The position numbers and the translations under genes were made by a program. A DNA stretch of 42,277 bases from Sulfurovum sp. (GTDB lineage: Bacteria; Campylobacterota; Campylobacteria; Campylobacterales; Sulfurovaceae), in assembly GCA_003978395.1 (NCBI GenBank), contig QNZV01000063.1, forward strand, positions 1 to 42,277. The letters are read 5' to 3'. Positions 7,976 through 12,638 of the stretch are shown here, in pieces (positions within the stretch are counted from its first letter, which is position 1; each line of letters starts with the position of its first letter). The notes under the pieces are model-generated. The model worked only from the letters and a program-made list of their open reading frames with translations, did no database searches and was not told the origin of the DNA.

Positions 7976-9421
7976 TTATTCAATATAATGTGTTCCTAAA
8001 CTCTCTTTACGTTTCAACGCAGCTTCTACAATGGCTGAAGCTGTATTAAGTCGAAGTTCTAGAAGTCGACCTATATCTCTATTTTTCATATCATAAATAG
8101 CATTTTTTGCTTTTAATAATCCTTTTTTAGTCCGTATAACACCTATATCATCCCACATAATTCTTCGTAAACGTTGTTTATAGATTTCATCCTTTTCATG
8201 ATGAACTATATTTTTATACTCTTTGTCGAATTTTGGAATTTCAACCTCGTTTTTCTCTTTTTTTAATATATAATCCACTGCTCTTTTAGCAAAAACAACA
8301 CCTTCAAGTAGAGAGTTCGAAGCCAAACGATTTGCTCCATGTACACCTGTACTAGAAGCTTCTCCAATCACATAAAGTCCCTCTATTCCTTCTACACATC
8401 CATTCGTATCACATTTTATTCCACCTACAGCGTAATGAAATGCTGGAGATATTGGTACTCGGTCTTGTGGAAAATTATACCCAATAGCTTCAAAACTTCG
8501 TGTAATATTAGGGAAACGTTTCGAAAACCACTCCGTATCAAACATAGAGAAATCGAGATAAACCTCTTCGCCTGTTTTTCGTTTATGGTCAAAAATAGCA
8601 CGACTTACAATATCCCTACTTGCAAGTTCTCCCCGTTCATCATAATCAAACAAAAAACGTCTTCCATCTTCAGCTACAACATGTGCCCCTTCTCCACGTA
8701 AAGCTTCTGTCAAGAGTAATTTTCGAGCAAAAGGTGTTTTTACAAATACCGTTGGGTGGAACTGCATCATCTCCATATCGGCTAACTCTATTCCTTTTTC
8801 AACACAAATTCCATGAATATCTGCCGAAACAGTTCGTGAATTGGTATTGAATTCGTAAAGTGACCCTACCCCACCAGAGGCAATAATAATATCATCTGCA
8901 AAAATGGTTTTATGTTTATAATTAACCAATGCTTTAACTCCAAAACAACGACCATTTTCAATCAGTAAATCATAAACCAAAGTATTTCGTTGGAGTTGAT
9001 GTCTATTTTGAAGCATCAAAAAATAGTGCATATAACGTCCTGTTGCATCCCCTCCTGCATGAACTATTCGTTCAGTAGAGTGGGCTGCCTCTTTAGTATA
9101 AACAATATTTCCCTCTTCATCAACATCAAATTCCATTCCTTTTTTAATAATATCTTTTGTTGTCTCTAAAGAGGTACGGCTTAGAATCTCTACAGCCTCT
9201 TTATCATTGTGATACGCTCCTGCTTCTAGTGTATCTTTTACATGTGACTCAATATCATTTTCATCTAAAGCTGTAACCATTCCCCCTTGAGCATAAAATG
9301 TATTACACTCCCAAGGAATATCCTTACAAACTACCAAAACTCTCTTCTCTTTTGGAATATTCATTGCCGCATAAAGTCCTGCAACACCTGCACCAATAAT
9401 CAATACATCATATCTCATCAT
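7976..9421 (-). CDS. nadB: L-aspartate oxidase
   Basis: FAD GxGxxG start DVLIIGAGVAGLYAAM; QGGMVTAL; MQFHPTVF; LLTEALRGEGAHVV; GVHGANRLASNSLLEGVVF. Confidence 0.93.
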   Translation of the reverse strand: MMRYDVLIIGAGVAGLYAAMNIPKEKRVLVVCKDIPWECNTFYAQGGMVTALDENDIESHVKDTLEAGAYHNDKEAVEILSRTSLETTKDIIKKGMEFDVDEEGNIVYTKEAAHSTERIVHAGGDATGRYMHYFLMLQNRHQLQRNTLVYDLLIENGRCFGVKALVNYKHKTIFADDIIIASGGVGSLYEFNTNSRTVSADIHGICVEKGIELADMEMMQFHPTVFVKTPFARKLLLTEALRGEGAHVVAEDGRRFLFDYDERGELASRDIVSRAIFDHKRKTGEEVYLDFSMFDTEWFSKRFPNITRSFEAIGYNFPQDRVPISPAFHYAVGGIKCDTNGCVEGIEGLYVIGEASSTGVHGANRLASNSLLEGVVFAKRAVDYILKKEKNEVEIPKFDKEYKNIVHHEKDEIYKQRLRRIMWDDIGVIRTKKGLLKAKNAIYDMKNRDIGRLLELRLNTASAIVEAALKRKESLGTHYIE

Positions 9422-9636
9422 TTTCCTCTATATTTCTCATTGTAAATAAAACTGATTATAATCAAGATTTATTTAGAGGTATATTATTTGATAAATAAAT
9501 AAAGAACTACTCAGTTAAAAAATAGGTTATAGTAAAATTAGATTAAATATTAAATAGTAAATAGTTATTTTTACAAACAGTTAAGCTTCATTTAGTTACT
9601 ATATTACATACGAGAAATACAATAATGGAGAGTAGT

Positions 9637-10296
9637 ATGGCATTTTTTTCAAAAGACAAAGAGATAAAAAAAGAGATAAAAGAGATAAAACCACAACAAC
9701 AAAAAAAGGCTGAACCTATAAAAGCAACTACAGATACAACTATTTCTAAAAATATTACAATTGAGGGTAATATTTCAGGTACAGATGCAATTACAGTAGA
9801 GGGTATACTTCTTGGAGATATTACGGTAAACAATGTAGTAATTGGAAAAAATGGCTCTGTAAAAGGCTCAATTACAGCCCAAAAAGTAATTATTAATGGA
9901 AAGGTAGATGGGGCTGTAACATGTAATGATTTAGATATTATGCATAACGGTTATGTAACCAATAAAATTCATGCCAATAAAATAATGGTAAGTGGAGAGA
10001 TTTTAGGAGATGTTTTAGCCGAAAGTTCTATTAATGTTACTCCTACAGGAAAAATAAAAACAGACGCATTGATGTCTAAACATGTGACAGTTAATGGTAC
10101 TATTGAAGGTAAAATCTCAGCCTCTGAACTTCTTGCTGTTGGGTCAAATGGATTTGTTAATGGAGAAATTTCAGTTAAAAACATTAGAACAGATGAAGGT
10201 GGACGTGTTATTGGTAGTATGGCAATGTATGAAGCTCCACAAGTTCAAAATAAAAAAGAACCTGAAATGCTTGATGCTACCATTGAAGAAGAATAA
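9637..10296 (+). CDS. Bactofilin family (polymer-forming cytoskeletal protein)
   Basis: Repeated beta-helix pattern (ITVEGILLGDITVNNVVIGKNGSVKGSITAQKVIINGKVDGAV...). ORF track starts at 9625, but that ATG overlaps the GGAG Shine-Dalgarno for ATG 9637 (MAFFSKDKE). Confidence 0.88.
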   Translation: MAFFSKDKEIKKEIKEIKPQQQKKAEPIKATTDTTISKNITIEGNISGTDAITVEGILLGDITVNNVVIGKNGSVKGSITAQKVIINGKVDGAVTCNDLDIMHNGYVTNKIHANKIMVSGEILGDVLAESSINVTPTGKIKTDALMSKHVTVNGTIEGKISASELLAVGSNGFVNGEISVKNIRTDEGGRVIGSMAMYEAPQVQNKKEPEMLDATIEEE

Positions 10297-10299
10297 TTT

Positions 10300-10404
10300 T
10301 TATTCTTGTTGGGAAGATTTTTCTTCCCAATAAGGATTTGCTTTATAACCACATCCCAATAACAATAGACAGCAAATAGATGCTATAATTATTTTATGAA
10401 ACAT
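10300..10404 (-). CDS. 34-aa LptM/YifL-like small lipoprotein (absent from the ORF track)
   Basis: Reverse-strand translation: MFHKIIIASICCLLLLGCGYKANPYWEEKSSQQE*. Basic N-terminus, hydrophobic core, lipobox LLGC, then CGYKANPYW resembling the CG.K.P.Y motif of LptM-type lipoproteins. Confidence 0.72.
   Translation of the reverse strand: MFHKIIIASICCLLLLGCGYKANPYWEEKSSQQE
10309..10330. terminator. Hairpin at the bactofilin/lipoprotein convergent boundary
   Basis: TTGGGAAGA-TTTT-TCTTCCCAA, 9-bp perfect stem just downstream of the bactofilin stop; lies within the lipoprotein ORF. No strong T tract follows. Confidence 0.5.
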
Positions 10405-10842
10405 GCCAATACTATTATCTCTCATATTAAATCCCTACCTCAATTTAAAATACTTAAAAGTCACTATTGTTATCAAAAGTTTATCGCCTCTTTATCTCCT
10501 AAGTTTCAAAAAGCTATTGCTTTTATTTATGTTCGAGAGAATACACTTTTTATAGCTCTCTCACATCCTGGATTTAAAATGGAACTAAATTATAATAAAG
10601 ATTCATTAAAAGATGTATTAAATATGTTAACTTACGTGGATAAAAACTGTCAATCCTTAAAAGCTTCCAAGGTAGTACTTTTTAACTCAAAACACCTATC
10701 TATTCTAAAAGAGGAAAAGATACCCAATATGATTACCTATTACAAAGAGCTCTCTTTTGGAAAATTTAAGATAGAGAGTGAAGACAAAGAGTTGATTGAA
10801 GCTTTTGAAAAGATAAGAGACTCTATCGAGAAAAAGCTCTAA
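10396..10842 (+). CDS. DUF721/DciA-like protein
   Basis: 148-aa ORF with KHANTIISHIKSLPQFKILKSHYCYQKFIASLSPKFQKAIAFIYVRENTLFIALSHPGFKMEL; stop overlaps the uvrC start (TAATG). Confidence 0.6.
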   Translation: MKHANTIISHIKSLPQFKILKSHYCYQKFIASLSPKFQKAIAFIYVRENTLFIALSHPGFKMELNYNKDSLKDVLNMLTYVDKNCQSLKASKVVLFNSKHLSILKEEKIPNMITYYKELSFGKFKIESEDKELIEAFEKIRDSIEKKL

Positions 10843-12638
10843 TGTACAAACAGATATTTCAAACCCTACAACATCTACCCAACCAAGCAGGAGTCTATCA
10901 ATACTTTGATAAAGATAGTAGATTACTCTATGTAGGAAAAGCAAAAAATCTAAAAAATCGTATAAAAAGTTATTGGCGATTTAGCCCAAATTTTCATCCT
11001 AACCCTACTCTAAATCTACGAATTCTCCGTATGTTGTCGCAGTCTGTTCGTATAGAATACATTGTAGTCGAAACAGAAGAAGATGCACTTATTTTAGAAA
11101 ACTCGTTAATTAAACAGCTCAATCCTAAATACAATATATTACTAAGAGATGATAAAACCTATCCCTATATTTATATAGATGAGAATCAAAAGTTTCCACG
11201 CTTTGAGCTAACACGAAAAGTTATAAAAGGTAAAAATATTATCTATTATGGACCATTTCCAAATGGAGGAAAAGTTCTACTCGATGCTCTTTATGAAGTA
11301 TTTCCTTTAGTTCAAAAAAAATCTTGCTTACGTGAAGGAAAAGCGTGTCTTTTTTATCAAATAGAGAAGTGTTTAGCACCTTGCGAGGAAAAAATATCTA
11401 AAGAAGAGTATTTTAATATAGTAAAAAAAGCAAAAGATGCCATTATAAAACGAAAGATTTTAATAGAGGTACTACATAATAAAATGGTAGAACTTGCTAT
11501 GGCTGAACGCTTTGAAGAGGCAGGAAAAGTACGAGATAATATTAAAACCATAGAATCATTAACCATTGGTTCAAACCTTGAATTACTTTCAAAAGAGAAT
11601 ATAGATATTTTTGCTATTGTAAATGGTAAAACAAAAGGTGTAATTGTTAAACTTTTTATGCGTTCAGGCAAGATTATATCCTCCTCTTTTTCTACTTTTA
11701 GAACATCTCATATTTTTGATAGCAATGAAGTATATAAACAAGCTCTATTAGAATTCTATAATCATGAAGCACCTCAAATTGCAAAAACTATTTTAATTGC
11801 TGATGATGTTGAAGACAAAGAAGAGTTGTCTCAACTTTTGAGCCGACGATTCTCTAAAAAAATTAATATTATCTATCCAAAACAGGGAATAAAACTAAAA
11901 CTTATTAATCTTGCACTCAATAATGCCAATGAACTATTAAAGAATAGTCCCAATGAACAAGAAGAGATAGAGAAAAAAATATCTGAACTTTTTGAATTAG
12001 AGACTACTCCTTATAGGGTAGAAAGTTTTGATAATTCACACATGATGGGTACAGCAACAGTAGGAGCAATGGTTGTATGGGAAGAGGGAAAATGGCTAAA
12101 AAAAGCCTACAGGCGATATGAACTAAACACAAAAGATGAATATGGACAGATGAAAGAGATGCTCACACGAAGAATTGAAAGTTTTGCAAAAAACTCTCCA
12201 CCCAACTTATGGATTTTGGATGGTGGAGAGACGCTAAGAAAATTAGCAATAAACCTCTTAGAACAATCAAATATGACTTTGGATGTTATTGCAATAGCAA
12301 AAGAGAAGCTTGATGCAAAAGCCCATAGAGCTAAAGGTTCAGCAAAAGATATTATTTATACAAACAAATCTGTTTTTGAACTCACAACTACAGATAAACG
12401 ACTGCAATGGGTTCAACGCCAACGTGATGAAGCACACCGTTTTGCCATTACTTACCACCAAAATAAAAAGCGTAAAGAGGATATAAAAAATTCTCTTTTA
12501 CAAAAAAAAGGCATTGGTCCTGCTACCATAAAGAAGCTTCTTAACTATTTTGGAACTTTCCAAGCTATAAAAAATGCAACTTATCAAGAGATTTCAGTAG
12601 CTAGCAGTGAAAAAGTTGCTAAAATATTAAAAACATAA
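10842..12638 (+). CDS. uvrC: Excinuclease ABC subunit C
   Basis: GIY-YIG start (GVYQYFDKDSRLLYVGKAKNLKNRIKSYW), UVR segment, RNase H-like ESFDNSHMMGTATVGAMVV, C-terminal HhH. Confidence 0.95.
   Translation: MYKQIFQTLQHLPNQAGVYQYFDKDSRLLYVGKAKNLKNRIKSYWRFSPNFHPNPTLNLRILRMLSQSVRIEYIVVETEEDALILENSLIKQLNPKYNILLRDDKTYPYIYIDENQKFPRFELTRKVIKGKNIIYYGPFPNGGKVLLDALYEVFPLVQKKSCLREGKACLFYQIEKCLAPCEEKISKEEYFNIVKKAKDAIIKRKILIEVLHNKMVELAMAERFEEAGKVRDNIKTIESLTIGSNLELLSKENIDIFAIVNGKTKGVIVKLFMRSGKIISSSFSTFRTSHIFDSNEVYKQALLEFYNHEAPQIAKTILIADDVEDKEELSQLLSRRFSKKINIIYPKQGIKLKLINLALNNANELLKNSPNEQEEIEKKISELFELETTPYRVESFDNSHMMGTATVGAMVVWEEGKWLKKAYRRYELNTKDEYGQMKEMLTRRIESFAKNSPPNLWILDGGETLRKLAINLLEQSNMTLDVIAIAKEKLDAKAHRAKGSAKDIIYTNKSVFELTTTDKRLQWVQRQRDEAHRFAITYHQNKKRKEDIKNSLLQKKGIGPATIKKLLNYFGTFQAIKNATYQEISVASSEKVAKILKT

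Follow-up and report, generated by a model that had tools for sequence, protein, structure and literature searches.

A short open reading frame on the reverse strand of the window, the whole 42,277-nucleotide stretch of Sulfurovum sp. DNA analysed here, is to judge from its sequence near certain to be a genuine conserved lipoprotein gene. The frame is conserved at the protein level, has a probable start codon, overlaps a divergent DUF721-like gene at its 5' end, carries the constraint of that gene's promoter, and stands in a genome that has both LptD and LptE. What might the lipoprotein do? We lean slightly towards a role like that of E. coli LptM for a lipoprotein that is secreted, lipidated and placed in the outer membrane; lipidation, location, LptD binding and function are what we infer. 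LptM-like function is thus put forward as plausible, with about an even chance of being right, while the interlocked leaderless promoter is strongly supported by the sequence and by published transcript data for its counterparts.

The lipoprotein gene and its start codon

The original prediction described a 34-residue lipoprotein frame at 10300-10404 of the reverse strand. Our translation of this interval is identical to the one it quoted, and the lipobox (LLLGC) and the CGYK.NPYW motif are both found in it. The frame has the features of a bacterial lipoprotein, namely an n-region, a hydrophobic stretch and the lipobox, and its Cys is invariant in the alignment. A lack of CGYK conservation and of a translation signal had been named beforehand as arguing against the gene. 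We found the opposite: 37 of 41 relatives have a match, far above chance, a translation signal is present, and a short conserved lipoprotein is confirmed.

The frame is real, but the length of 34 residues is probably wrong: an in-frame ATG further upstream, at 10425, gives 41 residues. Nearly all genus members share this upstream Met, the tract GAGG(A/T)AG(A/G)G is conserved among relatives some 7 nt ahead of it, and most relatives have L, S, F, C, I or T in place of the Met at residue 8 (ATG 10404). Thus translation very probably starts at ATG 10425. The overlap with the DUF721-like frame (ATG 10396), reported as 9 bp, is correct for a start at 10404 and becomes 30 bp (10396-10425) for a start at 10425. 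It is improbable that the protein, though LptM-like, starts at 10404 or at both ATGs. The residue-8 Met of the window genome and a few relatives (L006, L010) would fit such a start, and its replacement in most relatives next to a conserved upstream ATG and Shine-Dalgarno (SD) tract speaks against it. The likely product of the 41-residue frame is MRDNSIGMFHKIIIASICCLLLLG as signal peptide followed by CGYKANPYWEEKSSQQE as mature part. The features of the locus are listed in Table 1. No convincing promoter of the lipoprotein gene was found to be conserved within the DUF721-like gene, either by eye or by a scan.

Table 1. Features of the lipoprotein locus and its surroundings in the window
Feature	Position	Strand	Remarks
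Lipoprotein ORF, 41 aa, MRDNSIGMFHKIIIASICCLLLLGCGYKANPYWEEKSSQQE	10300..10425	-	Stop included; conserved start codon, SD and sequence
Shine-Dalgarno-like GAGGTAGGG	10433..10441	-	7 nt before ATG 10425; most of 22 genus loci retain GAGG(A/T)AG(A/G)
Signal peptide, residues 1-24	10354..10425	-	Ends in lipobox LLLG/C; contains F-H-x-x-I-I
Mature lipoprotein, 17 residues, C-G-Y-K-A-N-P-Y-W-...	10303..10353	-	Family motif C-G-[YFH]-K-x-x-P-x-[YW]
Extended -10 box TGCTATAAT of DUF721-like gene	10381..10389	+	Antisense to lipoprotein codons I13-I14; TGN-TA[TAC]AAT-N6-ATG
DUF721/DciA-like gene	10396..10842	+	PF05258 DciA 19.4 bits (cut-off 24); start codon within signal-peptide codons; directly upstream of uvrC
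16-pair hairpin	10302..10337	+	Likely bactofilin terminator; within lipoprotein 3' codons
Bactofilin gene	9625..10296	+	PF04519, E 1.9e-29; convergent; stop 3 nt from lipoprotein stop
nadB (L-aspartate oxidase)-like gene	7976..9421	-	Same strand as lipoprotein; named by sequence and context
uvrC	10842..12638	+	Downstream of DUF721-like gene

Interlocking with a gene predicted to be leaderless

The lipoprotein gene is antisense to the start of the DUF721/DciA-like gene in nearly all loci, and uvrC usually comes after the latter. The original prediction had this divergent gene in the right place, but missed that its promoter and start codon lie within the signal-peptide codons. Signal-peptide residues F-H-x-x-I-I are antisense to the TGNTATAAT -10 box and the ATGAAA start of the DUF721-like gene. 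In turn, the SD of the lipoprotein falls opposite the conserved LPQ codons in the coding sequence of the DUF721-like gene. Since each gene holds the start signals of the other in its coding sequence, the two 5' ends are mutually embedded. In 31 aligned loci the string TGN-TATAAT-N6-ATGAAA is almost invariant; note that the peptide pattern used to select the loci includes H..I[ILV], which favours these bases without dictating them. Of the 63 loci that carry the peptide GCGYKADP, 51 show TA[TAC]AAT on the antisense strand, exactly 6 nt ahead of an ATG.

Because the extended -10 box is only about 6-7 nt before the ATG, the DUF721-like mRNA of the window is predicted to be leaderless, starting at or next to the A of ATG 10396. 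Such a gene is expected to have a -10 box 5-9 nt before the ATG and a transcript that begins at the ATG. TGCTATAAT-N6-ATG is present in the window and conserved; a counterpart is reported to be leaderless, and for the window gene this is a prediction from sequence. The gene corresponds by position to cj1247c/hp0820, which has the same place upstream of uvrC, and shows a TAnAAT -10 box 6 nt before its ATG. In the parts of Porcelli et al. 2013 (PMC3847290) that deal with cj1247c/hp0820, it is the only gene predicted to be leaderless in every epsilonproteobacterial species that holds it, always upstream of uvrC. Its conserved leaderless state is explained there by a stress role of leaderless mRNA, and a lipoprotein gene on the opposite strand finds no mention in these parts. 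Why, then, is this mRNA leaderless everywhere? The overlap with the lipoprotein is a likely reason: with its -10 box and start codon both sitting in the signal-peptide codons, the DUF721-like gene would be transcribed without a leader.

A second linkage concerns the other end of the gene. In several relatives nadB is directly downstream of the lipoprotein gene, while in the window a bactofilin gene intervenes. At L210, L213, L216, L221, L035, L218, L194 and L027 the lipoprotein gene immediately precedes nadB in the same orientation, also where the overlap with the DUF721-like gene is lost. Since nadB follows relocated copies and lies beyond the bactofilin gene in the window, lipoprotein-nadB is a second conserved linkage. 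The hairpin right after the bactofilin stop is the only terminator-like site of the region (one found, 0.1 expected).

Selection on protein and on DNA

Codons of 133 distinct loci were compared with genomic codon usage. In the mature part, synonymous codons are used at close to background frequency: the Cys codons TGT and TGC occur in a ratio of 89:44 (usage 0.69:0.31), all four codons are in use for G and likewise for P, and Lys is AAA or AAG in 97 and 34 loci. As C-G-[YFH]-K-x-x-P is conserved while its synonymous codons are free, the frame is protein-coding. The pattern in the signal peptide is a different one. The His is CAT in 133 of 133 loci (usage 0.65), the first Ile (I13) is ATT in 129 of them (usage 0.46), and the codon of the residue after I13 always ends in TA. 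By these codon counts, the two kinds of selection are cleanly separated: CG-K-P is kept as protein and FH..II as DNA.

Among ten genus members the substitutions at codon positions 1, 2 and 3 number 131, 77 and 269, which is a coding pattern. Copies beyond the overlap (L216, L221, L035) have lost FH..II and kept CGYK..P. For example, L216 and L221 have unrelated signal peptides and keep CGYKADP. L035 has FN and FVI instead and keeps CGYKSDP, and the DUF721-like gene elsewhere in its genome keeps TATAAT-N6-ATGAAA.

Distribution in Campylobacterota

The sample for a lipoprotein family profile, built from 29 members, was 249 Campylobacterota genomes, all of the same order or family as the window; the profile matches 248 of them and 56 of 56 genera. 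An exact-match search of 85k species for GCGYKADP, with tblastn as confirmation, gave 63 loci, essentially all from Campylobacterota, in Sulfurovum, Sulfurimonas, Arcobacter/Aliarcobacter, Nitratiruptor, Helicobacter, Campylobacter, Thiovulum and relatives. One of the loci, on a metagenome-assembled contig titled Desulfosporosinus (L213), is an Arcobacter-like lipoprotein-nadB locus, and this title is probably a misassignment. The lipoprotein gene is tandemly duplicated at L161 (G099).

In one near-complete genome (G208, L114) the DUF721-like gene has neither the -10 box nor the antisense lipoprotein; no lipoprotein was found elsewhere in that genome, and no close nadB match either. The other exceptions, G006, G017, G018 and G040, are all drafts of at least 150 contigs and have no detectable match to the DUF721-like gene either. 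The main text of a C. jejuni Ribo-seq census names neither a lipoprotein nor cj1247.

Resemblance to LptM

LptM of E. coli, formerly YifL (Pfam PF13627, NCBIfam NF047847; PDB 8h1r, 9ia2, 9rpr and 9kn3), has a mature part starting with CGLKGPLYFPP, to be compared with CGYKANPYW in the window. The motif of the mature part in the present family is C-G-[YFH]-K-x-x-P-x-[YW]. Both are short lipoproteins with Gly after the lipid Cys, Lys at +3 (K23 in LptM), an aromatic residue near +7 and a poorly conserved tail, and the G, K and aromatic positions correspond to G21, K23 and Y27 of LptM. In 149 sequences the lipobox Cys is followed by G in 99% and by K at +3 in 100%, the latter under a collecting rule with a preference for basic residues or N at this position. 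The segment of LptM that is bound to LptD spans residues 20-29 (PMC12644819), and crosslinks to LptD are reported for L22 and Y27 (PMC10567701). The mature window protein, just 17 residues, is little more than this segment.

There are also clear differences. After the Lys, the window has A-N-P-Y where LptM has G-P-L-Y, and GP is found in only 4 of the 149 sequences; most members have A-D-P in place of G-P-L, with P at +6 instead of +5. The context is nadB and DUF721-uvrC in place of the dapF next to E. coli lptM, with no shared synteny. Furthermore, the LptD of Campylobacterota has one predicted interdomain disulfide against two, and lacks the E275 partner.

How far do the family models support the resemblance? 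The window protein reaches 19.0 bits against NF047847 (cut-off 27.7) and 14.4 bits against PF13627 (cut-off 27.3). As both cut-offs are missed, formal LptM membership of this copy is not claimed. Nevertheless, NCBIfam LptM is the commonest match among family members (24 of 29), and Pfam LptM_cons matches 16 of 29. One syntenic ortholog, L027, carries CGxKGPxYxP (CGHKGPPYYPK) and passes NF047847 at 30.2 bits (cut-off 27.7, E 3.4e-7), with 17.2 bits against PF13627, under the cut-off of 27.3. When the mature part was scrambled, the LptM match was lost in five of six variants, and the sixth fell from 24.2 to 13.5 bits. This indicates that the match depends on mature residues, beyond a generic lipoprotein signal. 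A PF13627 search in 41 relatives gave matches everywhere and none over the cut-off; since other lipoprotein-like frames score alike, up to 19.3 bits, it was dropped as evidence and the scramble control used instead. Thus the LptM resemblance of the original prediction holds in its commonest family match, the scramble control and one ortholog over the NCBIfam cut-off, but is weakened by the two missed cut-offs, the absence of a dapF neighbourhood, and the CGYK start of LptE.

LptD and LptE

A local LptD profile built from three proteins finds LptD in 41 of 41 relatives, including the window genome, where it is on contig C20 (687 residues, E 8.8e-158); the Pfam model PF04453 misses most Campylobacterota LptD. 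LptE of the window genome is on contig C17, with 24.3 bits over the Pfam cut-off of 23. In 29 of 29 LptD sequences, conserved Cys are found only at the equivalents of E. coli C173 and C725, which points to a predicted single interdomain disulfide in Campylobacterota. This agrees with the two Cys reported for C. jejuni LptD (PMC7089426). E275 of LptD, the predicted partner of LptM K23, is T or A in the alignment and not conserved. A near-invariant E is found at the T258 position, on the preceding strand; that this Glu replaces E275 as the Lys partner is a guess from the alignment. In the LptD of the window genome (L097) and 28 relatives, a near-invariant D-x-E-x-x-P-Q is seen in an early barrel strand. 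LptE (L111) also begins with CGYKP after its lipobox and scores 14.7 bits in the LptM match. CGYK is thus found in two lipoproteins of one genome, both of which may meet LptD.

Alternative readings

Could the frame be something other than a protein gene of its own? It might be a by-product of the leaderless promoter DNA, or a short leader ORF that does no more than regulate the DUF721-like gene by being translated or transcribed, as the bases of the -10 box and start codon inside the frame are frozen and its 3' part also houses the terminator-like hairpin. We regard this as very improbable. C, G, K and P are conserved while their synonymous codons vary freely, third-position substitutions are in excess, and the lipobox is present throughout. 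Moreover, copies of the lipoprotein occur at a distance from the promoter, where CGYK..P is all that is retained, and these relocated copies already contradict the by-product reading. A chance ORF was ruled out, and a pure regulatory leader rejected, on the same codon freedom, third-position excess and relocated copies together with the occurrence in nearly all genomes searched.

Given a real lipoprotein, the more serious question is whether its partner is LptD. It might be a phylum-wide outer-membrane lipoprotein other than LptM with another envelope partner, the CG-x-K likeness being a convergence on a short lipobox-anchored motif. The LptM scores under the cut-offs, the P at +6 in most members, the unconserved E275, the lack of synteny with E. 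coli lptM and the CGYK start of LptE with its 14.7 bits all fit such a protein. Against it stand LptM as the commonest family match, its need for the mature residues, the syntenic ortholog with CGHKGPPYYP over the LptM cut-off, and the presence of LptE and of an LptD with the disulfide-bearing Cys. We take this other lipoprotein as a real possibility, though distinctly short of an even chance, and continue with the LptM-like reading.

Proposed function and implications

If the protein works like LptM, signal-peptidase II cleavage would leave an acylated N-terminal Cys. The Cys and the next ten or so residues (CGYKxxPYW) would most likely insert at the lateral gate and beta-taco hinge of LptD in the LptDE translocon. 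The lipoprotein would assist LptD in adopting the conformation where the interdomain disulfide is made, and ease the passage of lipopolysaccharide. At the DNA level, its gene is interlocked with the divergent neighbour, each holding the other's start signals, and with the extended -10 box and start codon in the signal-peptide codons the neighbour is predicted to be transcribed without a leader. A bolder proposal, which we hold with a little less than even confidence, is that the ORF may be the missing LptM of Campylobacterota: universal, almost minimal and hardly longer than the LptD-binding decapeptide, serving an LptD with a single disulfide. Its gene would have been locked, from an early time in the history of the order, into a mutual overlap with a leaderless gene that possibly encodes a helicase loader.

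How C. jejuni translocates LPS has been called uninvestigated (PMC7089426), and outside Proteobacteria LptM-like genes were reported to be virtually absent (PMC10567701). Given that report, the family is a candidate phylum-wide LptM variant. Campylobacter and Helicobacter belong to this phylum, and a universal small lipoprotein with LptM features, if true, would give it a missing translocon subunit that goes with a simpler, one-disulfide LptD. The interlocking of the two genes could account for the sole leaderless mRNA conserved across Epsilonproteobacteria. What is more, the 126-bp gene is a clean quantitative case of dual selection, with amino-acid constraint and antisense promoter constraint side by side.

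There is a further point about the partner gene. Its protein has a weak match to DciA, the helicase loader (DUF721, PF05258), of 19.4 bits over the DUF721 domain, but this is below the cut-off of 24, and orthologs score 17.8, 13.6 or give no match. The very divergent DUF721/DciA-like protein may be the replicative helicase loader of Campylobacterota.
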